Assembly (NCBI GenBank): GCA_964036195.1
Contig: OZ038453.1
Coordinates: 7,517,469-7,581,468 of the forward strand
Source: Sphaerolaimus hirsutus
Lineage: Eukaryota > Nematoda > Chromadorea > Monhysterida > Sphaerolaimidae
Direction: 5' to 3'
Length of the DNA: 64,000 nucleotides
Both the position numbers and the translations under genes were made by a program. Below, piece by piece: positions 8,961 through 53,661 of this stretch (positions are counted from its first letter, which is position 1; the number at the start of each line of letters is the position of its first letter). The notes beneath the pieces were generated by a model. That model had not been told where the DNA came from and searched no databases. It saw nothing but the letters and a program-made list of their open reading frames with translations.

Positions 8961-9185
8961 ATTGCCGTACGTACCAAATACTGCACCCCTCCAAATTTCC
9001 ACGATGATACAATACCCCCCCCCCCCCGGGGGGTATTTCGAGGAAATACGGTACCGTGATTGCACTTGCACGCATGCGTTAATCGTTTTTGTGAATGAAC
9101 GTGGGCAATTCTGTAGAAGAAACCCCCCTCCAAAAAAAGAACCCCAAATAAGACACATGGACAAAATACGGCACCCCCTGTGCAG
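8961..9185. repeat. Family A end plus segment shared with 20565-20690
   Basis: A family A right end (CCCC...GGGGGTATTTCGAGGAAATACGGTA, to 9052) is followed by sequence homologous to 20565-20690 (GGCAATTCTGTAG, then AGACACATGGRCAAAATA). This is the upstream part of the duplicated gene segment annotated next. Confidence 0.55.
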
Positions 9186-9239
9186 AGTTTGCCCACCAGC
9201 CCAGTGCACGTGTATCCGGACGAAATGCCCGAACCCCCG

Positions 9240-9440
9240 GTGCGCACTGCCACACCCTGTAAAATACCCTGAAAAATGTCAAACGTCAAGCAAAGTGTCA
9301 AACGTCCAGTATTTAAAATGCCCTGTAAAATGACAATCGATGCTCGCCATTTTTCAGGACATTTTACATGACTTTAGACACTTGACATTTGACACTTGAC
9401 ATTTTCCATGGCATTTTACAGTGTGCGGGACTGCCGCCAG
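9240..9440. mobile_element. Family B foldback element occupying an intron
   Basis: Starts GTGCGC and has CCACACCCTGTAAAATACCC on the left; ends TGCGGGACTGCCGCCAG. The core is TGTCAAACGTC-type on the left and TGACATTTGACACTTGACA on the right, forming a hairpin. The boundaries coincide with the GT and AG of the intron between two coding segments. The orthologous position at 20743-20934 carries the same element. Confidence 0.65.
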
Positions 9441-9444
9441 GAAC

Positions 9445-10132
9445 CAGAGTTGTTAGAATTACTGAACTTTTTTAAAAGTATATGTAAACGTAAAGTATTT
9501 TTTTTTACTCACCACAAAGTATCGAAAACGTAAAATACTTTTTTTACTCATACGTACGCGTAAATTTGGGTACTTTTTGCGAGTGTAGAAACGACTACTT
9601 TTCGTCATTCCTGACGCTACACCTTTTGTGAGGAGTCAATACTTTTTCAAGTGGGTGTCAAGTGGGCACTTTTCATATGGGTACAACACAAAGTATGTTT
9701 TTGTTTAAGAAAATGATATATAACATAGTTTTCAGGGTCTCTTTATTCTAGCAGATAAAATAGCAAGATGGGCCCTACACACGCTAGTTGACATTGACAC
9801 CAAATGTCAACTGGTTCCGTTCCCAATTCAAAGCTTGCGTTTGAAGGTCGTTCGTCGGAAGCTTTGAATCGGGATCTGCACCAGTTGACATTTGGTGTCG
9901 ATGTCAACTAGTGTGTGCGGGGTCAATAGCGGCAAAAAAAATACAGCACTAATTCATCCAAATCTGGTAAATCACTAGAATACTGAAATACATATTCCGT
10001 ACGCGTATGCTCTGAAAATGTACGCGTACGAGTGCGTACGGTATTTTTTTTAAAAGTATATGTAAATGTATTTACCGCGTACGCGCGTACGCGTATTTTT
10101 CGAGTAAACGTACGTACCTTTTAACAACTTTG
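9445..10132. mobile_element. Family H hAT-like element
   Basis: Ends CAGAGTTGTTA and TTAACAACTTTG. The 8-bp duplication CCAGGAAC lies at 9437-9444 and 10133-10140. The core is low-complexity ACGTAAAGTATTTTT on the left and TACGCGCGTACGCGTA on the right. A separate small foldback (about 9775-9926, arms GTTGACATTGACACCAAATG) is nested inside. No coding capacity. Confidence 0.8.
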
Positions 10133-10226
10133 CCAGGAACACGTCAACCGCATGATGGCGAGTTTGTTCGGCACCTGCCCGGCTGCCTTGACATGTATCA
10201 GAGGACTGCAGAAGGAAAACAGAGAG

Positions 10227-10773
10227 GTTGAGTTCTGAATAAAGCGCATTTTCTGAAATGAGTTGATAGGAACATGCTTGAAAATTTTGATGAAATAATA
10301 ATCCCAGCTCGAATAGTGCCCCTGAAAAAGTCTGACAAAAATAATTCTGCGGGGGAATTGTTCAAGTAAGTATGGTGAATTAGCCTACTATTGTTGCATA
10401 AACTACCTACCTAGTTTAGAAATGCCCCTCTTTAATGACATGAAAATGTACCATAACTTCATGAATGACCACTCTCAGTCTCAAATAAATCCTCCAAAAA
10501 CACCACCAGGTTGGTGCCTCCAGTCAGACTATGTAAATACAAGTTGGGAAATGAAAATCCCCTGAAAATACATCCTTTTGGTACACTACTTTAGCAACAT
10601 GATATACAGGGGTGTGCATTTTCAGTTACCGCTGGAAAAACGCGATCGCTTGAGCTACGTATGAGCTATCACAGTGAAATTTAAACACTATAGAGTAGAC
10701 TCCATAGGACACCTATTCTGAAGTTTGCAACCCAAACGGCCACATTTTGGATGAGTAGTGGAACACACCGTTT
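10227..10773. repeat. Non-coding, with segment repeated inverted at 32.0 kb
   Basis: Bases about 10390-10605 match the reverse complement of about 32033-32240 (CTAAAGTAGTGTACYAAAAG on the inverse strand). The segment carries GAATAGTGCCCC and AATTCTGCGGGGGAATTGTT near 10310-10350, resembling family A-like ends. Nothing coding is seen. Confidence 0.5.
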
Positions 10774-20167: not shown

Positions 20168-23100
20168 ATGTGCCACTCCCAGACCCTGTAAAATGCCATG
20201 TAAAATGTAAAATGTATGCAAAGTGACAAAAGTCATGGAAAATCAAAACTCCATTGCCACATCGCAGGGTATTTTCCATGACTTGACACTTTGCATGACA
20301 TTTTACATTTTACATAACTTTTTACAGGGCTTGGTAGTGCCCCCTTGTCTATCAAAATCGTGCTCTTTTTGGTCGTCGTGCCTTTGTGCATTGTGAGTGG
20401 AACTACTACTAGCACTGCTAATGATTTTTGTCATCTGCGGTAAACCAATTATCGTTTTTCCTCGAAATACCCCTCAAAGTGGTCACTATGAATCAATAAC
20501 CCCCCCCCCCCCTTCTCGAAATACCCCACCTAGAATTAGTGTAAATGGAATGTAATTGCCAAAAATTACGCCACTTCATTTCCACTATGACTTACCCCTT
20601 AATCGCTTTTGTGACGTCACGTGGCAATTCTGTAGTTTAAATACCCCCTCCCCAAAAGACACATGGGCAAAATATGGAACCCCCTGTGCAGTGTTCGCCG
20701 ACCGGTCCTGTGTGGAAACACGCCGAAATACCCGAACCCCCGGTGCACCCCTAACCTTGTAAAAAGCCCCGAAAAATGTCAAATGTCGAGCAGAGTCGAA
20801 AGTCATGTAAAAAACCCTGGAAAATGAAAATCGAGTTCGCTATTTGCCAGGGCATTTCACATGATTTTCTTCACTTGACATTTGACACTTGACATTTGCC
20901 AGGGCCATTTTCCAGTGCGCGGGAGTGCCGCCAGGAGTACGTCAACCGCATGATGGCGATATTGTCGGGCACCTGCCCGGCTGCCTTGAGTTGCCTCAGA
21001 GGACTGCGGAAAGAAAGCAGAGATGTGCGCTGGCCCGTGTTTCAGATTGATAGAGTTGTTAAAACGTATTTATGTTTACTCGAAGGATACGTGTGCTCGA
21101 GTACAGAGTGAATATGTTTGAGCGTAAGTAAAAAAGTATCCCTGAAAGAAAATATCTGTACACACCTTTACGTGTACTTTTTTTGAGTACTCGAGTATTT
21201 CGTATTTCGTCTAGGCTTTTATTTCAGCTTTTTCAGGGCACAGGATGGGAAAAAAACGAAGAAAAAAGAAAGAAGTTAAAAGTTAAGAGAGTATCTTACT
21301 TAAAATAAGTGAAAAAAGGATTTTACTAATGCTTATCGCTCACTCATGTGAAAAAGTGAGAAAATAACCTTACGGTTTCTGTACTCAGGGAGGGCTTTAC
21401 ATGAGGGTGTACCTAGTGTGTCAAACTTCCGTTTTTCATACCGCTTTCCAGCTGCTGAATGTTTTTTCATTTTCCATTTCCGTTTTTCCAGCCTTGTTTT
21501 CCGTTTAGTGGTTGCAGAGTTGTCAAAAGTACCGAACTTTTTTCAAAGTATACGTAAATGTAAAGTATTTATTTTTTACTCACCCCCTGAGTACAGAAAA
21601 CATAAGGTAATTTTTTTACTTTTACTCATGACCATGAGTAAACATGAGTAAAATACTTTTCCTGCCAGAAAACATATTTTTGAGTATTTTTGGAAAAATT
21701 TTGGCCCAATTTTCACTCAAAATCACCCATTTTCGTAACTTTTTGACCATTTTGACCTTCAAATTCACAAGTACATGTGTTATGTGCCTATTTTTAGCAA
21801 CTTTTTCCTATTTTTCATCTTTTCTTCCCATTTTTGTTATCCTAGTCCTATTCTTCCCTTTAAAAAGCCTATCTGAAATACGTTTTCTGTACTTGAGTAC
21901 TTTCCAAAAGTATACGTAAAAGCAAGTACAGCTACTTTTTTGAAAGTATACGTAAACATATTTACTCAGTACTCAAGTATACGTACTTTTTGAGTAAACG
22001 TAAATATGTTTTAACAACTGAGGAGTTTGATTATGAAACCCATTATCTGCACGTTTTGGAGTTTTTTGAAAATCGCATTTTAAACTTTGACATTGGCCCG
22101 AGCCAGCATGGTTTGAGTGACAACGCTCGCTCAAAACGTTTCGAAAACGCCATGAATTTATCTACATTTTCCATATTTACAACCTTCTGGCTGGCAAATA
22201 TGGTTAAAGTTATGGCCACTTGATTGACATCACATCAACATACGTACGTGCAGATTTGTTCCTTATGTGGCGATTACAGCTCGGGCGTAAAATACCTAGA
22301 CAGGGCGTAACATTGATTTTTGGACGTAAAATTGATTTACAGATGACTGGATAAAGATACGACGTTGTAATTTCAGTCAAAGATAGGTTAGATGCAGACG
22401 TTTCTTGTGCCCAAAGCTGATCAGTTTTTTTGAATCGTACTGGGAGTTATGAATTTTCGCACAAATTTTTCCCATTATGCGCAAGAATTTTGCGCTCGAA
22501 TTTTACGCTGGTGTGTATTTTACGTCAGTGAAATTTGTATTTTCAGTCGGAGTTTTTCGCCAAGTAATACGCCGCGCCACGATGGGTTTCGAGTGCAAAC
22601 TCCATTTTTGTATGGTGATTTTGACACCTCTGGGCCAAATCCTTAATGGGTTTCGGATGCAAACTTTTTTATCTGCAGATAGCGGGTTTCGGGTAGTGAT
22701 GTTAAAGGCACCGGGAAAAATGGCACCGCACCGCACCGGCACCTTTGCCAACGCATGAAAAGGGCACCTGGCACCCTGGGACACCGGTCAGAAAATGGCA
22801 CCGCACCGCACCGGCACCGGTGTCTTTTGGAAAAAATGGCACTGGCACCGAAGGGCACCGGCGGGTTGCCGGTGCTAGCACTGAAAGGCACCGCACCGGG
22901 CTGGAATTTCTGAAGTACCGTATTACCTCGAATTATCCCCCCCCCTTGAATTAACCCCCCCCTCGAAATACCCCCCCCCCTAAATTTCGGCTGAGGAAAA
23001 AATAAACCCCCCCTCTAAATAACCCCCCTAAAATTGAGTGTAAAGAGAACGTACATGACAAATACCGCAGTTTGTGATCTGTAAAGTCAGAACACACGTT

Positions 23101-26100
23101 AAGACTAGGGTGTCAAAAAATTTTTTTACGGAAAACGGAAACGGAAAAAAAAATTCAGCGGCCGGAAAACGGAACGGAAAACGGAAAAAAATTTGCACTT
23201 GGCGGAAAACGGAAACGGAAACGGAAAAAAAATTTCAGTGGCCGGAAAACGGAAAAAGCGGCCGGAAAAACGGAAACGGAAAAATGGAATTTGCATGGAA
23301 ATGGACAAATTTGCTGAAATTTTGCCTAAAAAAACGATAAAATTCGCTGAAATTTTGCTGGAAACAGAATTTGTTTTACATAATTGACAATCTGCATGAC
23401 TGTTTACCAGTTTGGCTGGAACAGAAAACAGAAAGTTGAGCCAGAAAAGGGTAAAATGAGGCGGAAGGCATAAAATTGAGGCGGAAAACGGAAAAAAGGC
23501 GGAAAAACTGGAAATTGAGCCGGAAAACAGAAAATTTAACCGGAAAACGGAAAATGAGCCGGAAAAACGGAAACGGAAAAAAAGGTGGCCGGAAAACGGA
23601 ACGGAAAACGGAAAAAAAATTTCAGCGGCCGGAAAACGGAATGGAAAACGGAAAAAATTTGCCTGCGGAAAACGGAAACGGAAAACGGAAAACGGAAATT
23701 TGACACCCTAGTTAAGACTGATGATTGAGTGACGTTAGGGAAGGGTTTATGTGTATATACAGTTATTAATGCCTAAAAACACATATACGTCTATGTAAAC
23801 GCTTGATTTTTCTACGTCTGAGTATGCGGAATTTCTGAAAATTTCTGGCGAAATAATAGACCCCCCCCCCCCTCGAATAAACCCCCCCCCCCTCGAATTA
23901 TCCCCCCCTCAAATTTTGCTGGCGAAATAATAAACCCCCTGGGGGTATTTCGAGGTAATACGGTAAATATCGGGCAGTTTCTCAGTGGTCTCACTGCAAT
24001 GTCCATAGCCACTATTGTCTACTGATCGGAGTCGTTGCTGTACAGAGAATGGTCATAACTATCTCTGTCATAAACTGACAACAAATTTTGAACAAACAAG
24101 TAAGATATATATAAAATATAAAAATGATTTGAAATTCAACAAAATTTTAGATTCGCTCATCAGATCACGTATCGGGTATAATGGATTTCACAGTAGGTAT
24201 ATTTATCTGATGGGAGGTTTACAAAATAGGCAAAAACGGTTGGGTAAATATATCGCTGTTTTTTTAAATATGAATAAGCACATACTATGGACAAAATTGC
24301 ACAGCACATGAAGCCTTGGCCGGTACTTTCCCGGTGCCTTTTACTTTGGCCGTGGTGCTAGCACCTTTGGCACCAGCAAAAAAATGGCTCCGCACCGCAC
24401 CGGCACCGGTGCTATTCTGAAATAAATGGCACCGGCACCGGCATGGCACCCCTGAAGATTGCAATGGCACCGCACCAGCACCGGTGCTGGTGCCCTTCGG
24501 TGCCCAGCACCGGGGTACATCACTAGTTTCGGGTGCAAAAAATGATAGTTTTTTTGTAGATAACGGGTTTCGAGTGCAAACTCACCTATTTTGGGCTGTA
24601 CTGTAGATAACGGGTTTCGGATGCAAAGTTGCATTTTTTCAAAAATCGGTATCTCTGATCTCGGTAACGGTATGAGATATTGAGGTAATTTTCTTTTTAT
24701 CATGAAGAAAAATGAAAATATATATCAGATCCGCACTTAACTCATTTTTTTTTCCACTTTTGCACTTAACGGGTTACGGAACCAAACGCCTCAACTATGA
24801 CTGGCTGTTGCAGTTTTATTCTGTTTCCGTTTTCCAGCAAGTGCAAAAATGTTTCTGTTTCCGTTTCCGTTTTACGGCACGTGAAAACATTTTCTCCGAA
24901 AAAAAAGTTTTGTTGACACACTAGGTGTACCGCTAGCATGAAACAATGTGACATGGGCAAAATAAAATATGAAAACTATTCAAAACCGCAGATGATGAAT
25001 ACATACACCGATGGAGGAAAATTGCTGCAGGAGGGTGCCGAGAACGCATTTATAGATGAGTTATGCCAGTAAGTTGAAACGTTTTACAAATGGGTTTTCC
25101 GTTAATCGAGATTTACAATTTAGATCCTGGTTATACTTTTCCGTTCGAGTGCACCTTTGTAATAGTGATGGAAAAGCGCCAGGGAAAATGGTGCCAGGCT
25201 CCAAAATCGCCATTCAAAAAATTGCGGCGGGCGCCAAGGCCAAAGAACGCCATAAAAAATGTCGCCAGGCGTCAAAATGGCGCCAACCTTCAAAGTTATA
25301 TTTTACCATTTTACCATGGGGGCATGCCTAATACGCACATCTGCCCGTTCCGCACATTTACCCGTTTTTTCACTCGACACTTTTTCAAGTGATGTTCAAA
25401 TATAAGTAAAGTGAAAAAAAGTTGCGCAATGACATTAGTGAACTTTTTTCACTCATATCTGAAAATCCCTTGAAAAAGTGTCAAGTGAAAAAACGGTCAA
25501 AAATAGCCATTTTTCACCGTTTTTTCACTTGACACTTTTTCAATTGATTTTCATTGCCCAACTTTTTTCACTTCACTCATATTTGAACATCACTTGAAAA
25601 AGTGTCAAGTGAAAAAATGGGTAAATGCGCGTAACGGGCAGATGTGTGTATTAGGCATGCCCCCATTTGACCATCTATGTATATCAACACAGAAGTATTT
25701 GTAGGAGCGTAGCGAAGGTGTTACACCATTTTTCTGATGGTAAAAGCCAAAAATCCATCTGCCACACCCAAGAAACTGCATCTTATCATTAATTGCAACC
25801 CCATCTAAAGAGAAGCGGCAAAACGGCGCGAGTGCGTCGACTTATGCCCCAACCCCCCAGCTGAACACAGCCTGGTGCCAGTCCTGGACCCAGTAAAATG
25901 CCCTGTAAAATGTCGAGTGTCATGCAAAGTGGCTAAAGTCATGAAATAGGCCCTGCGACATGGCAATGCAGTTGTCATTTTACAAGGAACTTTAAATGAT
26001 TTTTGACACTTTGCATGATTTTTGACACTTTGCATGATTTTTGACACTTTGCATGATTTTTGACACTTTGCAGGACATTTGACATTTCACAGGCATTTAC

Positions 26101-29100
26101 AGGGTCTGTGACTGCCCCCTGGTCGCATTTAACAATGACATGGACCAGTACTTTTGCACTGACAGAAAACAAGGTCAGCGTTTAGCACACATCTGTGGGC
26201 AGTCTTATTATCTAACACCAAATTTCCTCGAAATACCCCCCTCCTTAAATTACCCACTCCTTGAAATACCCCCAGGTCTTTTAGAGCTGAGGAAAAAATC
26301 CTCTCCCCTCAAAACTTTCACTCTAAAAAAATAAACCCCCTGGGGGTATTCCGAGGAGGTACTGTACCTATTTTATAACGGTGGAACGCAGACGTGAAGG
26401 AAGCGATCACTTGTTTCAAGAAAGTCGCCACCAGCGAGCAGGGTAGGCAAGATCTGCAGGCACCTCAGTGCAGGTGTGTAAAACTTTGCGGACTTTTTGG
26501 AAGTCATTGTTCATCAGGATTTTTGTACGAGTGTGAATACTTCAACTTGGCACATGTCCAAGTTCCTTGCGTTTCAGGCAAACTAGTTTAAAGATGCACA
26601 ATTTCTGTTCGCGTCACCCATTATGGCTGCGGAATCCAATTAGGCGACCGCAAATGGTGACCCACATACTACCGTATTTCCTCGAAATACTCTCCCCCCC
26701 CCTCGAAATACCCCCCCTTGTTTGACCCCCCCCCCCCACCCCTCTCCAGACCACTATGAAACAGCCACCCCTCCTCGAAATACCACCCAGATTGAGTGTA
26801 AAGAGAACGTACATGACAAATACTGCAGTTTGTGTTCTGCGTAGTGATGGACACATGTTAAAAGAATGTCGGAATCACGTTAGGACAGTGTTTATACCAT
26901 CTACGCAGGGTTGGCAAAATCTCAGAAAAAAATAAAAATAAAATAAAAATAAAATGGAATATTCAAGAATAAAATAAAATAAAATAAAATAGAAAATATA
27001 AGAATAAAAATAAAAAGTGTATAAAAATTCGAATTTTTGTAAAAAATTTGTTAAATTGTACAAAAATTCGTATTTTTGTAAAATTGTATAAAAATTTGTA
27101 TTTTTTGTAAAATTTTATTTCGTTGCTTGAGTTTCTACCTGTTTATTCATGGATCTGGGAGCAGTCCCAAGTGTAAAGTGTCCAATGTCATGTAAAATGT
27201 CATGCAATGTGTCAATTGTCATGACAAATGTAAGGTCAAGTGTAAATTGTCATGATATGTAAAAAATAAAGTATCAATTGTCAAGTAAAGTGTGTCCAAA
27301 TCTTATGTTTTATATCTAAATCTTATGTTTTGTATCCAAATTATGTTGTTGTTGGATCCAAATCTTATGTGAACATTTGGATACAAAAACATAAGGTTTG
27401 GATACAAAACATACAATGGATACGAAAACACAAGATTTGGATACACAATTTACACTTTGCATGACATTTGTCATGACAATTGCCACTTTGCTTGAAATTT
27501 GACACGACACTTGACATTTTGCATGAGAATTGACACTTTACTTTATATTTGTCTAGACAATTGACAAATTGCATTACATTTTACAAATGTGCCGAGCACA
27601 CTCCACTAGTCCTTCTACTGAAAATGCAAACCATTCTTATCAATAATTGTAACTTTACACTTGCAGCTAGCTAACAATACATATTGCATGCAACTTTTGA
27701 AAAGTAAGGGAAAAATTTGTCACAGGTTTTTCATGTATAGGTCTAATTATAACATTTTTTTGGCCTTGCATGCATGATTCTGATTTTTTGTAAAATTTTT
27801 GTACAATTTTTGTAAAAATTTTGTAAAATGTGTCATTTTATTTTATTAATGACTTTTGGGAATAAAATAAAATAAAATACAATGAAACAAGAATAAAATA
27901 AAAATAAAATAAAATTTTTATACAATCTTTATACAATTTTACTAAAATGAATTTTTATAAAACCAACCCTGCATCTACGTACTAATATTAGTCTACAGGA
28001 GTCTATACATATCAGTTATTGATGCATTTTTCTACCCCAACGCATATCACAAACAACCATTTTTAATTTAATTTAAATTAATTGAATTTATGGGTAGAGC
28101 GGATTTCAAGGGTACTAAGATTATGCCAAAATAATCACCCCCCCCCTTGAAATAACCCCCTCCCTCATTTAACTCTCCCCCTCTCGGGAGCAGTATACAA
28201 CAATCACCCCCCGGGGGGTATTTCGAGGAAATACGGTAGTTGAAACTAGGGTGTCAAATTTCCGTTTTCCGTTTTCCGTTTCCGTTTTCCGCAGGCAAAT
28301 TTTTTCCGTTTTCCGTTCCGTTTTCCGGCTGCTGAAATTTTTTTTCCGTTTTCCGTTCCGTTTTCCGGCAACTTTTTTTTCCGTTTCCGTTTTTCCGGCT
28401 CATTTTCCGTTTTCCAGCTGAATTTTCAGTTTTTCCGCTGTTTTTCCATTTTCCGCCTCAATTTCCAGTTTTTCTGCCTTTTTTCCATTTTCCACCTCAA
28501 TTTTCCATTTTTCCGCCTCATTTTACCTTTTTCTGGCTCAACTTTCTGTTTTCTGATCAGCCAAACTGGTAAAAATTCATGCAGATTGTCAATGATGTAA
28601 AAAAATTTCTGTTTCCAGCAAAATTACTGCAAATTTTTTCCACTTCCAGCAAAATTTCAGCAAATTTTATCCATTTTCCGGCAAAATTTCAGCAAGTTTT
28701 TTCATTTCCGTGCAAATTTGATTTTTCCGTTTCCGTTTTTCCGGCCTCTTTTTCCGTTTTCCGGCTGCTGAAATTTTTTTTCCGTTTACGTTTCCGTTTT
28801 CCGCCAAGAGCAATTTTTTTTCCGTTTTCCGTTCCGTTTTCCGGCCGCTGAAAATTTTTTTCCGTTTCCGTTTCCGTTTTCCGTAAAAAATTTTTTTTGA
28901 CACCCTAGTTGAAACTTCCGCGTTTCATGTCCGCCTACAGCCTTTATATTTATGTATATTTAAGTATGTAAATGTATAAACCATGTTCTAACGTAACTCA
29001 ATCGTTGTTTTTAACGTGTGTCGTGTGTTATGCCCGGGTCATAAACCGCAGCTTTTGTCATTGACGTTCTCTTTACACTCAATTGGGGGGGGGGGTATTT

Positions 29101-31340
29101 CGGGTAGTGTAAAAGGAGCCTTATAGTGACTAGAGCCGATCCGCCGCAGTGGTCTAGCGGAATAAATACCTAGGCAAAAATGGGTATACTCGGTGGACAT
29201 CACACTTAATATGGAAACCTACCATAACACATCTACATACTGAACCAATAATTCAACAACTTTTCATCATTATTTCTCATTTTTTACTATTGTATAATTA
29301 ATTACGAAGTTTATCACAGGTACTTATTCATAAAATTATGGTAGGATTCTGCAGATATTTTGCGGTCCGCCGAGTATATATAAGACGATATATAGCCAAA
29401 GAAGCTCAAAATAGGTGAAGCTGAATATGCGAAGGTGAAAATGCATAGGTATAAATATAACAAAATTAAGTAGTGCTTTTGAGTGACAATTGGGGCAAAA
29501 TTTGTCAAAAATACTCAAATTTACATTCTGCATCACCTACGTTTCAATTGACCATCGTATTAAATTTTACCAAAAAGCGGATCAAACATTGACGCGCAGC
29601 CAGTGCAAGGCGCATCTCATGGAAATGCGTCACTCGGCGCACGAATTTAAGCAGCTGAGCTACTGGTTCCAGTCCCAGACCCTACAAATAGCCCTGTAAA
29701 ATGTCAAATGTCATGCAAAGTGTCAAAAGTCATGCAAAATGCCCAGCAAAATGTTAAATGTCATGCAATGTGTCAAAAGTCATGTAGAATGCCATTTTGC
29801 AAGCGAGTTGCCATTTTCAGAGCATTTTCCATGACTTTTGATACTTTGCATGACATTTTACACTTTACAGGGCTTTTTACAGGGTCTGGGACTGCCCCAG
29901 GGAAAACAAATCGCTCAAGGACATCGTCAGCATGGTGAATGGAAATGACGGTACAATTGGCAAAATGTGCAGGTGGGTGGACTTTTAATGGCATTTGCAT
30001 AAAACCATTGTACATATACCGCATTTCCTTGAAATAACCACAGGGGGTTTATTTTTTCAACGTGGAAATTTTGAGGGGGGGGGGGGTCAAACGAAAGGGG
30101 CGCTTTTGAGCGGGATTTATGATTTTGCCAGAAATTTTTCGAACTCCCATTCTCACTACTAATTCATCGTTGTTAACGTACGCTGAGGTAGAAAAATGAA
30201 AACGATAACTGATATGTATTAACGTCTGTAGACTTATATATGTATGTATATGGCACAAGCCCTGTTCTCACTAGGGTGTCAACTTTCTGTTTTCCGTTTC
30301 CACTTTCTGCAGCAAATTTTTTCCCGTTTCCATTTCCTTTTTTCTGGCTCATTTTCCGTTTTCCTGCTAAATGTTCAGTTTTTCCACTTTTTTTCATTTT
30401 CTGGTTCAAATGTCTGTTTTTCCAACTTTTTTTTCATTTTCCAGCTCAATTTTCTGTTTTCTGTTTCAGCCAAACTGGTAAACATGCATGCAGCTTCTCA
30501 ATTATGTGAATTTTTCTCTATTCCTAGCAAGATTTCTGCATATTGTTTTATTTCTGGATAAATTTCTGGAATTTTTTTCTGTTTCCAGCAAAATTTCAGC
30601 AAATTTTTTTCTGTTCCGGCATAATTTCAGCAAAATTTTCTGTTCCCCTTTCCGTTTTCCGCCCTTCCATTTTTCCGTTTTCTGTTTTCTGGCAAGTGCA
30701 AAATTTTTTCTGTTTCCGTTTTCCAGCAAGTGCAAAAATTTTTCCGTTTCCGTTTCCGTTTTCCGCCAAAAAGTTTTTGTTGACACCCTAGTTCTAACGC
30801 GTCTTGATTATTTTTTTTACGTGTGTTCTGTATTACGCAGAACAAAAACATCGAGGGGGGTATTTCTAGAAAATATGGTAAATCAATGATTCACATAAAT
30901 AAAAAAATCGCAATTTTGTATCAAAAAAATCGCAGCTTTCTTCACTGCGCGCTGGGCTGCGTTCGGCACGTGTCCGAGTCCCACTGCGGCGACGCGAAAC
31001 ACGCCGGGTGCCAGTCCCAGACCCTGTAAAAAGCCCTGTAATCTGTCAAATGTCAGGCAAAGTGTCAAAAGTCATGGAAAATGCCCTGCAAAATGACAAC
31101 TCGGTTGCAAATTAAAAAATAAATTAAAAAATTAAAAAGGGCACTTTACATGACTTTTGAAACTTTGCTTGACATTTAACATTTTACAGGGCATTTTACA
31201 GGGTCTGTGACTGCCCCAGGGTCGTACTCGACATGGTGACCATGATAAACCAGTTCGGCAACGACATGAGTAGTGAACTGAATTTGAACTGTTTGGTGCC
31301 GGATACGTGCAAGACTATGCACGTGGTCGATGGTAGTTGA
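20168..31340 (+). CDS. Secreted Cys-rich protein, at least 11 small exons; introns filled by transposons
   Basis: Exons by frame and phase: ATG 20168-20170 with 20348-20439 (signal peptide IKIVLFLVVVPLCIVSG); 20692-20742; 20935-21024; 24992-25068; 25811-25874; 26122-26173; 26392-26473; 29600-29665; 29901-29972; 30936-31007; 31220-31340 (TGA). From the exon starting 20935 to the end every phase matches (0,2,0,1,2,2,2,2). The junction between the signal exon and 20692 does not match, so an exon or splice choice is missing there. Cys motifs: GTCPAALSC, RRECVDLCPNPP, DQYFCTDRKQ, AITCFKK, QAPQCSQC, GTIGKMCS, FLHCALGCVRHVSESHCG and NLNCLVPDTC. Cys spacing in an all-helical background recalls small secreted domains such as DUF19 or CPG4, but I cannot assign a family. 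Introns 20743-20934, 25875-26121, 29666-29900 and 31008-31219 are whole family B elements. The intron 25875-26121 ends TG, not AG. Confidence 0.65.
20171..20347. mobile_element. Family B element directly after a putative start codon
   Basis: Begins right after GTCATG and reads TGCCACTCCCAGACCCTG; ends GGTAGTGCCCCCTTG. Removing it joins ATG to TCT ATC AAA ATC GTG, giving an in-frame signal peptide. The edges are not GT...AG: the AT before it could supply a GT donor one base earlier, but the 3' edge ends TTG. Confidence 0.55.
20450..20640. repeat. Family A fragment inside the intron after the signal exon
   Basis: CTCGAAATACCCC blocks and a C-tract near 20500-20530. Followed by a segment shared with 9060-9150. 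Confidence 0.5.
20743..20934. mobile_element. Family B element occupying an intron (GT...AG)
   Basis: Starts GTGCACCCCTAACCTTGTAA and ends GGGAGTGCCGCCAG. The boundaries equal the exon boundaries. The same element lies at the homologous intron 9240-9440. The hairpin core has TGTCAAATGTCGAG on the left and TGACATTTGACACTTGACA on the right. Confidence 0.65.
21040..22020. repeat. Family H-type and family E-type fragments
   Basis: TAGAGTTGTTAAAACGTA at 21052 and TTTTAACAACTG at 22010 look like family H ends. A second end (CAGAGTTGTCAAAAG) at 21527 shows nesting. 21415-21520 is a family E fragment (TGTGTCAAACTTCCGTTTTT). 21700-21880 contains open but low-complexity frames. Confidence 0.5.
22021..22693. 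other. Spacer ending in short tandem repeats
   Basis: 22021-22560 has no recognised feature. From about 22575 a degenerate unit containing GGGTTTCGRGTGCAAACT recurs at roughly 55-60 bp spacing and continues after the nested elements (24526-24640). Confidence 0.45.
22916..23965. mobile_element. Family A element nested in family D
   Basis: TACCGTATTACCTCGAATTA to CGAGGTAATACGGTA. It matches 6732-7163 once the family E insert 23106-23710 and one 8-bp duplication are removed. Confidence 0.8.
23106..23710. mobile_element. Family E hAT-like element, copy 1, nested in family A
   Basis: Ends TAGGGTGTCAAA and TTTGACACCCTA. The 8-bp duplication GTTAAGAC lies at 23098-23105 and 23711-23718. The core is degenerate GGAAAACGGAAA simple sequence along nearly the whole length, all in one orientation here. 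Confidence 0.85.
24526..24990. repeat. Tandem-like unit and family E fragment
   Basis: 24526-24640 continues the GGGTTTCGRGTGCAAA unit. 24815-24935 holds a family E fragment (TTTCCGTTTTCCAGCAAGTG) ending TTGACACACTAGGTG. Confidence 0.5.
25155..25317. repeat. Family C-like fragment
   Basis: TAGTGATGGAAAAGCGCC followed by GCGCCAGG-type repeats. The right terminus is not found. It abuts the foldback element at 25318. Confidence 0.5.
25318..25664. mobile_element. Foldback element with ~10-bp imperfect target duplication
   Basis: Ends GGGGGCATGCCTAATACGCA and its near reverse complement TAGGCATGCCCC. Flanks ATTTTACCAT (25308-25317) and ATTTGACCAT (25665-25674) agree at 9 of 10 bases, the length expected for Mutator-like elements. 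The core is CACTTGACACTTTTTCAAGTG repeats in foldback. It lies in the intron before exon 25811. Confidence 0.65.
25875..26121. mobile_element. Family B element occupying an intron with GT...TG edges
   Basis: Starts GTGCCAGTCCTGGACCC and ends GGGTCTGTGACTGCCCCCTG. The flanking GCCTGGT and CCCTGGT form a likely 6-7 bp target duplication. The exons on both sides join in frame (AEHSL|VAFNND) only if the intron ends in TG, or if removal follows the duplicated bases. The core has four tandem TTTGACACTTTGCATGATT units. Confidence 0.65.
26228..26370. mobile_element. Family A fragment in intron
   Basis: TTTCCTCGAAATACCCCCC, internal repeats, and ATTCCGAGGAGGTACTGTA at the right end. Confidence 0.55.
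26670..26905. mobile_element. Family A fragment in intron
   Basis: TACCGTATTTCCTCGAAATA with C-tracts, then the GAGAACGTACATGACAAATA segment common to the family. The right end is lost where the family G element begins. Confidence 0.6.
26906..27971. mobile_element. Family G hAT-like element, copy 2
   Basis: CAGGGTTGGCAAAATCTC to AAACCAACCCTG. The 8-bp duplication CATCTACG lies at 26898-26905 and 27972-27979. Same layered core as copy 1 at 7630-8668. Located in the intron between exons 26392-26473 and 29600-29665. Confidence 0.85.
28125..28246. mobile_element. Family A fragment
   Basis: C-tracts with CTTGAAATAACCCCC and a right end TATTTCGAGGAAATACGGTA. Confidence 0.55.
28247..28907. mobile_element. 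Family E hAT-like element, copy 2
   Basis: TAGGGTGTCAAATTTCCG to TTTTTGACACCCTA. The 8-bp duplication GTTGAAAC lies at 28239-28246 and 28908-28915. The core is TTTTCCGTTTTCCG simple sequence throughout. Confidence 0.85.
28916..29599. other. Intron sequence, no gene seen
   Basis: 29030-29105 repeats the family A inner segment (TTTAACGTGTG, then G-tract and TATTTCGGG). 29106-29590 shows nothing that I recognise. The exon starting at 29600 is preceded by ACGCGCAG as acceptor. Confidence 0.45.
29666..29900. mobile_element. Family B element occupying an intron (GT...AG)
   Basis: Starts GTTCCAGTCCCAGACCCTA and ends CAGGGTCTGGGACTGCCCCAG-type sequence. Both edges equal the exon edges, phase 2 on both sides (tac tg|g gaa). 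The hairpin core has TGTCAAAAGTCATG units on the left and CATGACTTTTGATAC on the right. Confidence 0.7.
30018..30271. repeat. Family A fragment in intron
   Basis: ACCGCATTTCCTTGAAATAA, G-tract near 30075-30087, and GGGATTTATGATTTTGCCAG. No right terminus. Confidence 0.5.
30272..30790. mobile_element. Family E hAT-like element, copy 3
   Basis: TAGGGTGTCAACTTTCTG to TTGACACCCTA. Duplication GTTCTCAC at 30264-30271 and GTTCTAAC at 30791-30798 (7 of 8). Core TTTCCGTTTTCC simple sequence. Confidence 0.8.
31008..31219. mobile_element. Family B element occupying an intron (GT...AG)
   Basis: Starts GTGCCAGTCCCAGACCCTGT and ends AGGGTCTGTGACTGCCCCAG. Exon edges coincide with the element edges, phase 2 on both sides (gcc gg|g gtc). 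Core of TGTCAAATGTCAGGCAAAG and its inverse, with a short AAATTAAAAAAT run at the hairpin tip. Confidence 0.7.
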
Positions 31341-32534: not shown

Positions 32535-34332
32535 TTACCTTTCCGTTTTCCATTTTCCGGCAGCTGAAAAAATTTTACCTTTCCGTTTTCCATTTTCCGG
32601 CAGCTGAAAATTTTTTACCTTTCCAATACCGTTTTTCCGGCCCATTTTCCCATTTTCTGGCTTGATTTTCAGTTTTCTGGCATTTTTCCATTGTTTTTCC
32701 AATCTGTATTTATCTTCAATTGGCTCATCCCATTGTGTTGTTTTTGTCTCTTGGAGCAGCATTGACAACTGGGATTTCAGGGTCAGTGAAACAGGTGCTG
32801 TGAACCCAATTGGGTCATATGCTGACGCCAATAATTTATTCAAATTTTGTCTGGTTGGTGTTGTGATGCTGTCAATTTGCAATTTTGGTATTGATATTGC
32901 CAGCATGTCCGTTCGGTGATTTTATTTCATGCCCATTACTGCAACAATTTTATTCACCTTTGGACTCCTGTCACAGCAAATAATGTGCTCGTGAAGTGCA
33001 CTGAAGTGGTCTGAAGTGCCCCTTGTGATCACACTTCAGACCCTGATCACGCCTGATCACCAGGCACTTCACCGCTCGTGATCACACTTCAGAGCCTGAT
33101 CACGCCTGATCACAGTTGGAATGCACTTCACCGACACTTCACGGATTTGTTTACTAAATTGTTTACAGAAATAAAAAATCAGTAATTCGTGAAGTGCGTT
33201 GAAGTGCCTGCGAGCGTCTGCGTGAAGGCACTTCACCGCAGATCACCGCAGATCACCAGCGCATTTTTTGCTGTGTGTTGTTTTCTGCTATTTCATTCAT
33301 GACTGATCTGGAGTTTGATAGCCATTCCCTCATGTTCATAGAACATTGGTTAAATAAAGCTTTGACTTTGTAATATAGTTCTAAAGCTTCAACTTCATTC
33401 ATGACACTCATGATGAAGTTATTGTCATAAATGTTGTTTATTATCACTGCCAACTGGTTTCCTTCCCCTTCATTTTCTTCATATTCATTCATGTTGTTTA
33501 TTGTCACATTTAAATGGTATTTTATGACTGCTCCCAAAATTGCTGGGCTGCAGACAAGTCCAAACAGTATGCGTTTAAAACAAAGTACTATTAAGTTATT
33601 TTCAGTTACTGGTTTTGAGGCATCTTTCAGCCAGAAAAATTGTATGTAGTCTCTAGCTTGGTCATGCAATCCTATTTGCAAAAATGCTTTTTCAATATCG
33701 GCAATTAATGCTGGATTGCCTGCCCTGAACCTCAGGAGTAGGCCCAGTGCTAATGGTGTTGTAATTGGTCCTCTAAAAAGGCACTCGTTGAAACTGGGCT
33801 TACCTGCCAACCCGTCGTACACGATTCTGCATGATGTCGATTTGCCTGGCGTGATTACTGGCTGGTGTGGCAGGTAATGAATCCCCTTGTTGTCTGTTTT
33901 GTTGTCACAGATCTTAATTATTCCCTTTTCTAGTTGGTCATCCAAAACTTTCAGGTATTGTTCGAATAAGTTTGGATCTTTGTTGAATCTTCTTATCAGT
34001 GATTTAAACCGCGCCAAGGCTTCTGCTTTTCCCGTGGGCAGGTCACTGATACTCTCTTTATACAGCCAGTCAATATATTATTGTTTGTTGTTGTTGTTGA
34101 ATTTTATGCTATTTATTATCATCTCCTCTGCAATGTCGTCATCAATTGCATAGGGGTCATCAGTGATTCCCACTGCTTCTAGACTGTGAAATTGTTGTAG
34201 TGTTTCCTTTCCTATGGCCACTATGGCTACTTTTTGATGATTTTTTGTTGGTTCAGTTAAGCTTGAACTACAAGTGAAGTTACAGGCATGATCCATAGTT
34301 GCAGAATGTACAGCTACCACAATCAAAGCCAA
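32535..34332 (-). pseudogene. BEL/Pao retrotransposon pol fragment, decayed
   Basis: Read on the - strand. 34332-34084 shows the region before the RT (LQQFHSLEAVGITDDP), then a stop at 34080-34082. 34080-33253 carries RT motifs typical of Pao/BEL: DLPTGKAEALARFKSL, DQLEKGIIKI, STSCRIVYDGLAGKPSFNE, and IADIEKAFLQIGL with the first catalytic Asp. The expected YVDD box reads YDNN, so the second catalytic pair is lost. A family J element (32972-33275) interrupts it. After it, 32971-32700 has an in-frame stop and YDPIGFTAPVSLTLK, the conserved segment behind the RT. No Gag, integrase or LTR is present. Not functional. Confidence 0.8.
32972..33275. mobile_element. Family J element with CACAG ends
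   Basis: CACAGCAAATAATGTGCTCG to GCGCATTTTTTGCTGTG. The 3-bp duplication TGT lies at 32969-32971 and 33276-33278. Core of GTGAAGTGCACTGAAG and GATCACGCCTGATCAC repeats in foldback. CACAG-type ends with 3-bp duplications suggest the CACTA/EnSpm (CMC) group. Confidence 0.7.
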
Positions 34333-43302: not shown

Positions 43303-46300
43303 CTAACATGCATAATTCTGCATACCTGCTATTATCAGTTTATCCACGGCCTTCCTATGGGCCGGACAGGTGAGATGTGAGAGCCAGTCTTTGCGTGTTA
43401 TACAATGTGATACACACTTTATACTAGAAACGGCATATCGATATTCATCAAGGGCAGGGCATATGTATAGAATATGGTTCAGGTTGCAAATTGTTTTAAC
43501 ATTAGATGAACTACACTTCACACAGTGTTTCCTAGTGCTACCATTATGACACCGTATAGCGTTGTGGCGTGCTGCGAACCAAGCCAAATTGTTGTAATAC
43601 ACTTTACTTGGGTGCATCTGTAATCCTACATCTTGTCTGACAGTTACAACTTTTTGCTTTAGCGCAGTCTCTTTCGCAACCGACATACGATAGGTGCGAC
43701 ATGCCAGTTTAACGTTTGTTTTTGTAAGTGTTTTAGCTTCACATGACTGTAATGAAATGTCTTTACAACAGTCTGACATTCTATCAGTTAGTAATCTAAA
43801 CCCCCTTTTTGTCAACCTAACATTGTTCATAAGAGATTCTTCACACAACATCGCCTTTTTCAGTAATCTATCAGCATTAAGTGAGTTTGCATAATTTGTG
43901 TAAGTTATTGTCATCTGACGATATCTATCTGACGGTAGTTCACCACCTAAGTCTAATAATAGACTGTCACCGCTGCATGATTTGGGTAGTCTAACGCAAC
44001 GCTTCATTGTCTGAAGGTATAGCTGATCCATTTTCTTAAGTAGTCCCGTGTTGCACCCCGTTACTTCCAGACCGTACATACTGGCACTTTCTATGTATGA
44101 TTTCCAGGCTATTTTTCCATATAACAATGGTTTCGTAGTTTTCTGTGAAGAAAGTATCGCCAGACTGCTATGTTTGAGGAATTTATTGTAACATGATGTT
44201 ATATGTCGTTTGAATGGCTGTAAATCATTGGTTATTGTGATGCCCAGATATCTTATCTCTGTTGTTTCCTTTATACTATTAAGCGATTTATTACTATCAT
44301 AACCCAATTGCCATTCAATGTTATGTGTTGGTTTACCCCATCTCAGTACTGATGATTTTTCTTTGTTTATCGACACGTTCCATCTCCATGCCCATTTACT
44401 GAATATATGCATCAACTCTTGTAACTCATATTCTGTATTGGACAGTAGCACAATGTCATCAGCAAAGAATAGTCCCGGAAGTTTAGGTTGTTCTTTTCCT
44501 AATTTTGCACCAAATCCCGTGTTCAGTAAATCATACGCTAAATCATGCATGTATATTGCGTATAATGTAGGGCTCAAAGCGCAGCCTTGGGCTACCCCTA
44601 TTGGGTATTCCATTTCCTCACTAACGTAATCCCCATACGTCATTTTAACACTAATATTTGTGTATGCATTTTGTATTGCACTTATAAGTAAACTCGGTAG
44701 ACCCATTGTTTTCATTTTAAACCATAGCTTCTCCCTATCTACTCTATCAAATGCCTTAACGGCATCTACAAAGCACCCATAAAAGTTGTTTCCCTGAGCC
44801 TGGGCATAATGATAGCATGTATTAAGTATATGAACGTTGTCACATGTTCTTCGGTTCGGTCTGAACCCCCCTTGTAACTCTGTAAAAACGTCGTGCTGCT
44901 CCATGACATGCATTAATCTATTGTTTAGTAGAACCATATACAGCTTTTTCACATTACATGAAATACCTAGAGTTCTATAGTTTTTCATGTTGCACCTATC
45001 TCCTTTTTTGTGCAACAATACCATTTTGCATACTATTGCATCAGGCGGTATCGGGCTACCGTGTAACCAAGCATTGTACATATTAAGAAGGACAACCCGT
45101 GTACTCCCATCCATATGTTTTAGATGTTCATGATGAATATTTGACGTTCCCGGAGATTTATTCAGCTTTAATTGTTTTATCGCATTGTCTAATTCCACCA
45201 AGGAGAAATCTGATGTTAGATTATCTATGTCAGATTCCTCAAAGTTTCGATTGCCTACTTCATAATATGTTGGTGACCCTGGATTCGCCTTCATTATATT
45301 CTTCCAAACCATACCCATTTCTACATTCATTTCCGTCTCAGTTTCAATGAGTTTTCCATCTTGGTTTTTCATTGCGGTAACTACTTTACCAGTTTTCCAA
45401 TTTTTATTGATGTGTTTGTAGATAGTGTTCATTTCTGCCCCCTTATTTTGCAGTGTTTTTTCTATATTTCGATCGTTTGATTCTAGATATAGTCTCTTTT
45501 TTTCCTTCTTGAGTCTATTTTTGAGTAGTGTTAGTTCATTTTTCAGCTCGGCTGTATAACTCACTCTAATTTTCCTACGTGTTTTCGCTATGTTTCTGTG
45601 AAGTTTTTGAATTGAACGAGGTACAGATGGTTTGTGTAATTTAACACTTCTGTTGGCCGTCGCATAAGACGATGCAGACTGAATTGACTTAACGATTTTT
45701 TCGTATGATGAATTTTCGGGTATATGTAAGACCTTTTTATAACTCACCCACTCATCTCCCTTTGGTTTAACTGTCAAAGATGTCGGTTTTTTGCATGGTT
45801 TCATATCGTTCACACGTAGAAGAATTGCATGATGATCTGATGATATTGGACATACCACACCATTACTATCAATCTGACCACTAATTCCATCGATGGGAAA
45901 GTTCGAGAAGCAAAGATCGATGACTGAGCGTGCATTTGACCGTTCATATGTCCATAATTCGGAAAAAATGTTGTTTATCAACGTCGGACCATAGAATGCC
46001 CTCCAATCCCTTACTAGTTTACCATTCATGTTTACGTCGGCATTATTTCCTTCAATACCTAGTTCATCATTTCCAATATGGCCGTTAAAGTCACCTACTA
46101 GAATTGTACGCTGTGAGTATTCCGTATGGTGTAGTAACATTTCACCTAGTTCTGATAGGATAGTTTCATTCTTCTCGGCTACCGAGTTTGATTTCTTACA
46201 TTTACTATTGTTTTCTAGATAGCATGCCACTATATTTTGAGTTTGCATTTTGGTTTTAACAGAAATGCCAACTAAATTATTTTCATTTTTAAACGTAAGT

Positions 46301-47967
46301 ATTTTGAAGTCAAGTGCTTTCTTGATGTATATCGATATGCCTCCAGTTTCTAAGCTTGTTTTAAAAGTGTGTACCGCACTATACCCTGGTATACAGATTG
46401 CATCTGTAGCACATCTGAAATGAGTCTCCACCAAGCATAAAATATCTGCACATGCGAGGTTAGCAGCTGCAAATAGTTCCTCCTTTTTCCATCGTAATGA
46501 GCGAACGTTCTGATACAAAATTGTAAAAGGTATAATAAGGGATTGTAAAACCACTGATGTTGAATCAGTTATTTCCGAAGTTCCAACTAGATCACCAATT
46601 GCATTTATTGGTCGTATCAGTGTGATCACAACGAGTAGGACAGTAAAATATTTGACCTGTGACACACCGCGGATAAATTTCAGAAATGTTGACCATATAT
46701 GTAGTATCCCTGTAATAGTTACAGTCAACCATAACAGATATTTAACAATGGCAACAATTCTGGAATTTTTTATCCCAAAACTAGCAAAATAACCCGATTT
46801 AACGCCAAAAGTGTAAAATTTCACATCCTTCAATTTTGATGCAGTTGACGCGCAAAGTGCTGCGTCAAGGTGCGATTCCCCGGTGTTTGATTCATGTTCA
46901 CTGCTCCAGATTGATGGGCGGAGCTTGATGCGGCAGCCTGCGTCGTGGTAATGTTGTAGCATTGTAAAAAAAGAGGGTTTTGTAGGAGTAACTGACATTT
47001 TTAATAACTCTCTCCTTGTAACTTCACTTAGCACCATATTGCCCAATTCTGACGTATGGATGCCATCACGGGCCATCATACGCATAAACAAGTCTATGCT
47101 GTCATCACATTTACACATCCTAAACTCATTGCAGATAAACTGCATCAGTGGCAAAACAACAACTTTTTCCAAATTATCTGTCACAAGGTCAATTAGCGAT
47201 CGTTCCAACATCAAGTAGAATTTTAAAGTGTCAGCTAACAACAAGCGAGACCACCCATGTTTAATGTGCCGATTCATTGTCGGCCCTATTAGCGACAGCA
47301 AAATTTTTCCTGAGGGCATTAGTTTCAGCCCTGTCGAATTACAAACAGTTGAAACACACTTGAAAACACCCGACAAAAAAAAGTCATCGACGCATGTGCT
47401 GCTGAATTTTTCGGAAAAGTACTGTTCGGCATCACATGCGTCCAGAACACATCTGATGACAACTGCGTCATAACACGTATCAAACTGCACATCGGACAAC
47501 GCGGCACATACAGTTGGCAGGCGCTTGCCATTGAACAACGATTTACTGCTGTGCACCGAAACGGGCACGTTGTGGCTAGCACAATCATTCCCAAACATCA
47601 TTTGAAGCGAGTGGGCACATGAATCCCCGATTAGAAAAACGGAAAAAAAATATTCGTATGCGTCAACCCTAACTGCACCGAATTTCGAGCATGTATTGAC
47701 AAATGCCGGCACAGAGTCACAATCCCTATAGGCAATTTTCGGACCTAAATCGCACGAAATGTGTAAACTGCGCAGAATTTCCGAAGGTGATTTTATTTTG
47801 TGCCCAAAAATTTTATCACTGAAAACCCCGGTGTCCGGATTTTTCGCAGTTGATTTGACAAATGACGCCAGTGTTTTGGCACATTTTGCCGCCGTAAGTG
47901 GACCGGTCGTTTGTACGCGTTTGTTCGTCGTTTGTTTGAAAAAAAAGAAAATTGGCCCGATTTTCTT
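43303..47967 (-). CDS. Non-LTR retrotransposon polyprotein: SGNH hydrolase-like domain + endonuclease + reverse transcriptase
   Basis: Open from a stop at 47968-47970 to TAG at 43303-43305, about 1,554 codons. No ATG lies in the first 85 codons, so the start is upstream, by splicing or frameshift, or non-ATG. Numbering from 47712: IGDSC at 28-32 and DGIH at 216-219 are blocks I and V of SGNH esterases. Two hydrophobic helices follow at about 318-340 and 354-367. An APE-type endonuclease begins at about 398 (LYQNVRSL, ILVGDFNGHIGND at 537-549, SDHHA at 625-629). RT motifs: QGGFRPNRRTCDNV (947-960), VDAVKAFDRVDREKLW (982-997), GVAQGCALSPTLYAIY (1039-1054) and FADD (1083-1086). The tail has CVKC...H...C, a zinc knuckle. 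The ORF is intact with catalytic residues in place, so the copy may be young. Esterase domains are known in ORF1 of some LINEs; here the fold lies in the same ORF as EN and RT. Confidence 0.85.
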   Translation of the reverse strand, partial: KKIGPIFFFFKQTTNKRVQTTGPLTAAKCAKTLASFVKSTAKNPDTGVFSDKIFGHKIKSPSEILRSLHISCDLGPKIAYRDCDSVPAFVNTCSKFGAVRVDAYEYFFSVFLIGDSCAHSLQMMFGNDCASHNVPVSVHSSKSLFNGKRLPTVCAALSDVQFDTCYDAVVIRCVLDACDAEQYFSEKFSSTCVDDFFLSGVFKCVSTVCNSTGLKLMPSGKILLSLIGPTMNRHIKHGWSRLLLADTLKFYLMLERSLIDLVTDNLEKVVVLPLMQFICNEFRMCKCDDSIDLFMRMMARDGIHTSELGNMVLSEVTRRELLKMSVTPTKPSFFTMLQHYHDAGCRIKLRPSIWSSEHESNTGESHLDAALCASTASKLKDVKFYTFGVKSGYFASFGIKNSRIVAIVKYLLWLTVTITGILHIWSTFLKFIRGVSQVKYFTVLLVVITLIRPINAIGDLVGTSEITDSTSVVLQSLIIPFTILYQNVRSLRWKKEELFAAANLACADILCLVETHFRCATDAICIPGYSAVHTFKTSLETGGISIYIKKALDFKILTFKNENNLVGISVKTKMQTQNIVACYLENNSKCKKSNSVAEKNETILSELGEMLLHHTEYSQRTILVGDFNGHIGNDELGIEGNNADVNMNGKLVRDWRAFYGPTLINNIFSELWTYERSNARSVIDLCFSNFPIDGISGQIDSNGVVCPISSDHHAILLRVNDMKPCKKPTSLTVKPKGDEWVSYKKVLHIPENSSYEKIVKSIQSASSYATANRSVKLHKPSVPRSIQKLHRNIAKTRRKIRVSYTAELKNELTLLKNRLKKEKKRLYLESNDRNIEKTLQNKGAEMNTIYKHINKNWKTGKVVTAMKNQDGKLIETETEMNVEMGMVWKNIMKANPGSPTYYEVGNRNFEESDIDNLTSDFSLVELDNAIKQLKLNKSPGTSNIHHEHLKHMDGSTRVVLLNMYNAWLHGSPIPPDAIVCKMVLLHKKGDRCNMKNYRTLGISCNVKKLYMVLLNNRLMHVMEQHDVFTELQGGFRPNRRTCDNVHILNTCYHYAQAQGNNFYGCFVDAVKAFDRVDREKLWFKMKTMGLPSLLISAIQNAYTNISVKMTYGDYVSEEMEYPIGVAQGCALSPTLYAIYMHDLAYDLLNTGFGAKLGKEQPKLPGLFFADDIVLLSNTEYELQELMHIFSKWAWRWNVSINKEKSSVLRWGKPTHNIEWQLGYDSNKSLNSIKETTEIRYLGITITNDLQPFKRHITSCYNKFLKHSSLAILSSQKTTKPLLYGKIAWKSYIESASMYGLEVTGCNTGLLKKMDQLYLQTMKRCVRLPKSCSGDSLLLDLGGELPSDRYRQMTITYTNYANSLNADRLLKKAMLCEESLMNNVRLTKRGFRLLTDRMSDCCKDISLQSCEAKTLTKTNVKLACRTYRMSVAKETALKQKVVTVRQDVGLQMHPSKVYYNNLAWFAARHNAIRCHNGSTRKHCVKCSSSNVKTICNLNHILYICPALDEYRYAVSSIKCVSHCITRKDWLSHLTCPAHRKAVDKLIIAGMQNYAC

Positions 47968-52479: not shown

Positions 52480-53346
52480 GGCCACACAAGCTGGTTTTCA
52501 AGGTTCCTTTTTGAAAACTCTTCTGCGCGATGCGTCGCTGTACGGTTTTCAAAACTGTGCAATTTGCACTTTTATTTTTCTTTAAGTGAAAGCATATGTG
52601 AATATTGGTTTCGGCAAGTCACATTTGTTGTTCAAAGTTCACATTTGCAGAACATTTTTGAAAACTGTACGGCGACGCATCGCCAACATTCTACTCTGTT
52701 GACAATTTTGAAAACTTAAAATTGAATAATGTAGTTTTCAAAAATGTACATTCCAGTTTTCAAATGTGTAAAACATTTTTGAAAACTGAACATAGAGGGT
52801 GATGTACAGCGATGTATGGCAACGTCGCTGTACGTCGCTGTACATCGCTGTACATGCCAGTTTTCAATATCTGTGCAACATATGTGAAAATGTGTTGCAG
52901 TACACACCAAAAGTAGCAAAATCATCACCAGGCATCACCAGTTTATGAAATTTCGCCAACTTACTCCAAAATCCTTTAAAAACTACTGGATGAATGGGTT
53001 TATGTAAAATTGACACTGTAGATGCAGTATTTTATGCTGCATTTAATGATAGGGTTGTAGAAAACTTGGGATTTATGTAAAAAAAAAATAATTTTTTTTA
53101 AGTATGTCACTGTGGCTACATTTCAGGTGACAACTGCATATGTCACCTGTTTCCACAACTTATTACCATATTTGAAAAGTATTTATAAAATGAAAGAATT
53201 CATGCATTTATTAACAACACAGAATCTGGTACTTGGTACTACTGTTACAAAGGGTTCAAAGGCGCAACTACTGGTTAAATTTATCTTTGTGAAATTTGTG
53301 TGGACCATGCAATGATTATGAATGATCTTGCATTACAGGTTATCCT

Positions 53347-53661
53347 GTGCACTGTGTAAAATGCATTTTTGGGATTTTGGCTGCTCGGTGGCGCATCCTG
53401 CTAATGACCATTTCAATGGAATCACACAGGGTCAGCAAACTGGTTATGGCTGCATGTTATTTGCACAATTTTATCAAAGAATTGCATGGCACAAATGTAT
53501 CGGATCACTTTGACGAGGAAGGAAATGAAAAGCCACCTGTGTGCGCTGTTGAAGAACAAAGTCTACACAACCAAACAGTTAGAAATTGTATTTTAATTGA
53601 TATAAATTTTGGAATTGCTGAACATTTCATAAATGCAGTTAGATTGGCACCAGGGGTATGA
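53347..53661 (+). pseudogene. Harbinger transposase C-terminal fragment
   Basis: The frame encodes IFGILAARWRILLMTISMES and VSKLVMAACYLHNFI. In DDE_4 / HARBI1-type nucleases the last catalytic Glu lies in an ENAFGIL..R block before a C.LHN motif; here the equivalent position reads VKCIFGIL, so the Glu appears to be Lys. The upstream part of the transposase cannot be traced. The fragment sits inside the element 52480-54699 and is on its + strand. Confidence 0.65.

Follow-up and report, generated by a model that had tools for sequence, protein, structure and literature searches.

Hairpin elements of one family at exon junctions of a secreted-protein gene: a candidate introner family in an animal

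Introners and related introns in other lineages

The origin of new introns is a long-standing question. In PMC9860276, introners are reported from 175 of 3,325 genomes and, among animals and land plants, from two taxonomic groups, both of them animals; copepods are named among the introner-bearing species, and many routes are described by which splice sites are recruited from the element or from its target. Introners of that study resemble the family considered here (family B) in being introns alike to near both ends, many of their families having inverted termini; those of Symbiodinium have target repeats of 4 bases together with inverted repeats. They were drawn from whole annotated genomes, whereas family B comes from the DNA of one gene alone and its target repeat is uncertain. 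The original prediction for this locus held that a family of this kind would be unusual in an animal, which is fair, but the animal introners in the same text mean that it is not unprecedented.

Hairpin introners of the dinoflagellate Amoebophrya, as described in PMC7789003, have direct repeats of 3-5 bases that span the borders with the exons, and widely varying ends. Family B resembles them in having inverted repeats able to form a hairpin, ends that are not necessarily GT-AG and, possibly, short direct repeats. However, more than 60% of Amoebophrya introns are non-canonical, whereas family B stands beside six ordinary GT-AG introns, and the inverted repeats of Amoebophrya measure 8-20 bases against arms of 68-105 bases (78-90% alike) in family B. 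In the non-canonical introns of euglenids and diplonemids covered by PMC12621601, direct repeats flank the intron and its two ends pair with each other, and MITE-like elements are proposed as a source of the diplonemid introns; these organisms belong to another lineage, and family B differs in having GT at 5/5 and AG at 3/5 of its gene copies. In Fritillaria borealis the non-canonical introns are mostly AG-A(N) (Henriet 2019, as related in PMC12621601 and PMC7789003), whereas family B has GT-AG, or GT-TG/GT-TT in two copies. Among the introner papers listed under horizontal, copepod and sponge themes, no title or abstract opening describes family B. The Fritillaria introns have reportedly been linked to MITEs, and the introner authors are said to have carried out a follow-up survey in 2025.

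Family B copies and the gene that holds them

The window, that is the whole 64-kb stretch of Sphaerolaimus hirsutus DNA analysed, contains six near-full-length copies of family B, all on the + strand, as is the gene described below. Four had been put forward in the original prediction as copies of one family and do form a single inverted-repeat family: E1 (20743-20934), E2 (25875-26121), E3 (29666-29900) and E4 (31008-31219), with pairwise identity of 0.67-0.80 and nhmmer E-values of 3.3e-65, 1.2e-62, 8.3e-50 (plus a second piece at 9e-19) and 2.9e-47, respectively. Two more go beyond that prediction, namely E0 (20170-20346; E-value 1.4e-46), separating the ATG from the signal-peptide exon, and E1' (~9240-9440; 1.6e-42), which occupies the site of E1 within a partly duplicated exon pair; the nhmmer profile was built from the five gene copies E0-E4, leaving E1' out, and identity across all six copies is 0.67-0.82. 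Family B is like a MITE in its terminal inverted repeats, its short length (175-247 bp) and the fact that no coding capacity was seen. In 6/6 near-full-length copies the left end is GTGC or GTTC and the right end GCCCC or GCCGCC, so all six share one orientation relative to the gene. A scan for the terminus CAGTCCCAGACCCTGTAAA, allowing up to five mismatches, found paired termini at 5/6 of these copies; E1 was missed because its ends have drifted further, and was placed by the profile instead. An exact search of viral contigs for the inverted terminus gave no match.

All six near-full-length profile matches in the window lie at exon junctions of the secreted-protein gene or of its partial duplicate. 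Partial relatives occur at 7.9-8.3, 27.2-27.6, 56.5-57.5 and 60.0-60.7 kb, with weaker matches elsewhere, and all of these fall outside the exons of that gene, the only one modelled in the window. If 10% of the window is coding, five independent insertions would all land in coding exons with a chance of ~1e-5, a simple bound that assumes independence rather than a model, and on this reckoning random placement does not explain the copies at the predicted exon junctions. Introners are recognized by several introns that resemble one another from end to end, as far as the splice borders; such likeness is seen here among predicted introns at five positions of one gene and in its duplicate.

Lone family B termini were also found at 7.9 kb and 57.5 kb, the latter a left end on the minus strand (57497-57545) with CTG before GTGCC, lacking a right end and lying outside recognised exons. 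The family B relative at ~27156-27594 lies inside a different inverted-repeat element at 26907-27971, with ends CAGGGTTGG/CCAACCCTG and flanked on both sides by CATCTACG, which itself sits within an ordinary intron. Elsewhere in the window, the minus strand carries an open frame of 1554 residues with reverse-transcriptase and endonuclease-like matches, a LINE-type element (43303-47967), as well as a repetitive stretch whose three overlapping open frames translate alike (59142-59783) and a piece of BEL/Pao-type reverse transcriptase (33253-34077). The best match of the BEL/Pao piece is from the sponge Dysidea avara (44% identity), and named matches among the best 120 of 276 include a rotifer, bivalves, nematodes, corals and others; BEL/Pao elements are not known outside animals. 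A DDE_4-type transposase-like piece at 53326-53658 scores below the Pfam cut-off.

When E1-E4 are excised exactly, E0 is cut out at its direct repeat and six ordinary introns of GT-AG type are removed, the result is a predicted frame of 795 bases that runs from ATG to TGA through 12 exons and 264 residues with no inner stop, the start of the predicted protein resembling a signal peptide. In this model the signal-peptide exon (SIKIVLFLVVVPLCI, 20348-20392) ends at a GTGAGT donor, and the exon to the left of E1 (20692-20742) begins after a GTGCAG acceptor; to the right of E1 follows 20935-21024 (EYVNRMMAILSGTCPAALSCLRGLRKESRD), and an exon between ordinary GT-AG introns lies at 24992-25068. E2 is bordered by exons 25811-25874 and 26122-26173 (VAFNNDMDQYFCTDRKQ), another exon between ordinary introns occupies 26392-26473, E3 lies between 29600-29665 and 29901-29972, and E4 between 30936-31007 and the last exon, 31220-31340, which ends in TGA. 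GTAAAC as the donor of the first exon (phase 2) was rejected, since it clashed with the reading frame of 20692-20742, whereas the donor GTGAGT at 20393 fits that frame.

A search for protein homologues, made with an earlier 280-residue model containing one misread segment, found none at E-values up to 10 among 281 candidates; solved structures searched with the final protein model gave no homologue either, and the one Pfam match, CPG4 (E 0.027), is below threshold. The gene itself consequently rests on sequence logic. Its six ordinary introns are all GT-AG and their donors match GTRAGT at 4-6/6 bases, against just 2-3/6 in the donors of family B, while the 17 bases before the acceptor contain 7-10 pyrimidines in ordinary introns and 7-10 in the elements.

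The exon pair around E1 is duplicated at 9079-9442 and 10132-10228. This duplicate is broken at an exon start by another insertion (~9445-10132) with CCAGGAAC on both sides, the ends of which we take to be hAT-like, and its right exon has 8 changed against 3 silent codons. Both features, along with the two gene copies that lack AG, would suit a gene that has died, in which the copies are mere insertions in former exons and nothing is spliced there. We regard this as very improbable: the frame is intact across 264 codons in 12 exons, the six ordinary introns are all GT-AG, and the exons have a G+C content of 0.53 where the window as a whole has 0.38, albeit in exons selected for an open frame. 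The element copies of the gene differ from one another by 19-33%, and at such an age a dead gene would be expected to have acquired stops.

Element ends, splice sites and the predicted hairpin

Alignment places the element termini at the intron ends that had been predicted, with left ends GTGC, GTGC, GTTC and GTGC and right ends CCAG, CCTG, CCAG and CCAG in E1, E2, E3 and E4. E1 (GTGCAC..GCCGCCAG) would fill a phase-0 intron, E3 (GTTCCA..CCCCAG) and E4 (GTGCCA..CCCCAG) would each fill one of phase 2, and E2 (GTGCCA..CCCCCTG) stands at a phase-0 junction, without AG and with CCTGGT on both sides. Removal from end to end preserves the frame on both sides in 4/4 cases, bearing out the matching exon phases of the original prediction, and retention of the element would bring 2, 8, 3 and 10 in-frame stops at E1, E2, E3 and E4. 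The accompanying claim that the element supplies the splice sites fared unevenly: GT is present at the aligned left end in 4/4 (5/5 with E0), but AG at the right end in only 3/4 (3/5 with E0), since E2 ends in CTG, as the original prediction had partly noted, and the additional copy E0 in CTTG.

Frame alone cannot fix the exact ends, because each copy offers more than one GT-AG pair that leaves the frame open: when donors were allowed between -40 and +60 relative to the left end, and acceptors no more than 60 bases away from the right end, 9/54 pairs keep the frame at E1, 12/63 at E2, 12/40 at E3 and 26/66 at E4. The sole pair common to the lists of E1, E3 and E4 is that of the exact element ends, and for these three copies the case for exact fill appears good, although that E1-E4 are introns at all is itself a prediction. 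At E2, if GT at the left end is kept, a single frame-keeping AG lies 27 bases into the exon (26148) and its use would drop nine residues; two internal pairs also keep the frame, with the weaker donors GTCGAG and GTCATG, and end in VAFNNDMDQ. Removing E0 at its short direct repeat gives ATG-TCT-ATC, the ends being GT..TT or, shifted by one base, TG..TG, and six internal GT-AG pairs of E0 yield an in-frame ATG (for example 20200/20327, where the ATG comes from the element itself).

These internal pairs bear on a quite unlikely alternative, in which the copies are ordinary insertions spliced at internal GTAAAA/TTTACAG sites, their termini being kept as codons, or else lie within pre-existing introns. 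GTAAA does occur in the left half of all five gene copies (1-3 per copy, none in the right half) and TTTACAG in the right half of 4/5 (in no left half), a split that is expected of reverse complements such as GTAAA and TTTAC. Two GTAAA/TTTACAG pairs preserve the frame in each of E3 and E4, and the six E0 pairs with an in-frame ATG and the two frame-keeping E2 pairs, with their weaker donors, could likewise be used; but no GTAAA/TTTACAG pair keeps the frame in E1 or E2. Pre-existing introns, for their part, would leave non-element sequence beside the exons, for which the exact-fill frame gives no room in 4/4 cases.

Predicted RNA folding separates the elements from their shuffles, with z of -12.0, -6.0, -6.6, -13.7 and -13.9 for E0, E1, E2, E3 and E4. 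In E0, E2, E3 and E4 the predicted stem begins at base 5, leaving GT unpaired, and stops 6-8 bases before the right end, whereas in E1 it pairs from the first base. A stem that runs from just inside the donor to near the right end would thereby bring the element ends side by side.

A short target-site duplication is plausible from the flanks. In one of the best registers the left/right pairs for E0 to E4 are CATGT/CTTGT, CCGGT/CAGGA, CTGGT/CTGGT, CTGGT/AGGGA and CGGGT/AGGGT; the direct repeat is perfect in E2 only (CCTGGT) and imperfect in the other copies, and, taking the best of 120 registers, 12/120 left/right flank pairings match equally well. The base at -3 from the left end is C in 5/5 and that at -1 is G in 4/5, and a preferred target CNG is thus possible. 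Elements of the hAT superfamily have CAG..CTG ends with an 8-base target duplication outside them. Membership of family B in hAT was considered and rejected, there being no 8-base duplication: the flanks agree at 2, 4, 1, 3 and 4 of 8 bases in E0, E2, E3, E4 and E1'.

We consider it probable, though well short of certain, that family B is an introner, that is a non-autonomous inverted-repeat DNA transposon of MITE type with several insertions in exons, each spliced out. Family B, presumably moved by a DNA transposase, would have entered the coding exons of a single secreted-protein gene on several separate occasions, and splicing would take every copy out of the pre-mRNA. The left terminus would supply the donor (GTGCC). 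The right terminus, CTGCCCC, is followed by a base triplet that is CAG in three copies and would act as acceptor; this triplet may be the target-site copy, drifted to CAG. The hairpin of four gene copies would help by setting their ends side by side, while E1 is predicted to pair nearer its ends. A more specific variant, which we think unlikely, is that E2 (CTG) and E0 (CTTG) are cut exactly between short direct repeats, so that the hairpin, by bringing the ends together, and the repeat rather than AG would define the 3' end, similar to the hairpin introns of Amoebophrya and euglenids; in the other copies CAG would have arisen later, through mutations in the target copy on the right.

Separate insertions or duplicated exons

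A family present at several junctions of one gene could also have spread with the exons themselves: one insertion would have made one intron, duplication of the exon pair would have multiplied it, and E1-E4 would be alike by descent, the exons having diverged fast afterwards. That process is represented at this locus, in that E1 and E1' clearly stem from a single insertion that was then duplicated. They group together in the tree, in which branching among E0, E2, E3 and E4 is unsupported. Within the duplicate, the left exon stretch (20683-20742 against 9177-9239, 46/60) is kept no better than the element (157/190 aligned bases identical), and the right exon, 10137-10226, matches its counterpart at 76/90 bases. 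In fast-evolving secreted proteins, exons can outpace introns in divergence, as in snake venom phospholipase genes, and the elements here do sit between comparable cysteine-bearing stretches.

Comparison against shuffles nevertheless points the other way for E1-E4. Alignments of the element ends score above all 500 shuffles in 20/20 comparisons, whereas for ordinary introns (three of the six, those that follow comparable cysteine codons) 120-460 of 500 shuffles are as good in 6/6 comparisons of their ends; the best of 12 comparisons of coding halves, made with exon ends that deviated from the final model by as many as nine bases, had 18/500 shuffles as good. Among six protein unit pairs only U3-U4 stands out (15/1000 shuffles as good), a weak match that would be compatible with an ancient duplication of a domain, while the other five pairs and the coding-half DNA lie at or near shuffle level. 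The dissimilarity of the three ordinary introns in comparable places, the differing phases of the element introns (0, 0, 2 and 2) and the position of E0, which lies by the start codon and belongs to no unit, also argue against descent by exon duplication, which we judge to be an improbable source of E1-E4.

Because the elements resemble one another whereas neither the coding halves nor the three ordinary introns do, repeated separate insertion is favoured by these comparisons over one insertion copied with the exons; homogenisation between element copies may have contributed to their likeness. Of the original proposal that family B made several introns, exact fill of several predicted introns, GT at the left end and repeated insertion are the parts that the sequence favours; splicing, an origin by insertion into exons, mobility through a DNA transposase and help from the hairpin we infer.

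A palindrome with TTTTACAG on one arm has CTGTAAAA on the other, and a hairpin transposon can therefore offer sites resembling donors and acceptors whichever way round it lies. Introners are already known elsewhere, and family B, five copies of which lie in one gene, is likely to be such a family in an animal. If this is true, one family would stand behind up to five introns of a single animal gene, and its copies, which differ in how well their right ends fit a splice site (CTG, CTTG and CAG), would allow the passage from fresh insertion to well-formed intron to be tested step by step in an animal.
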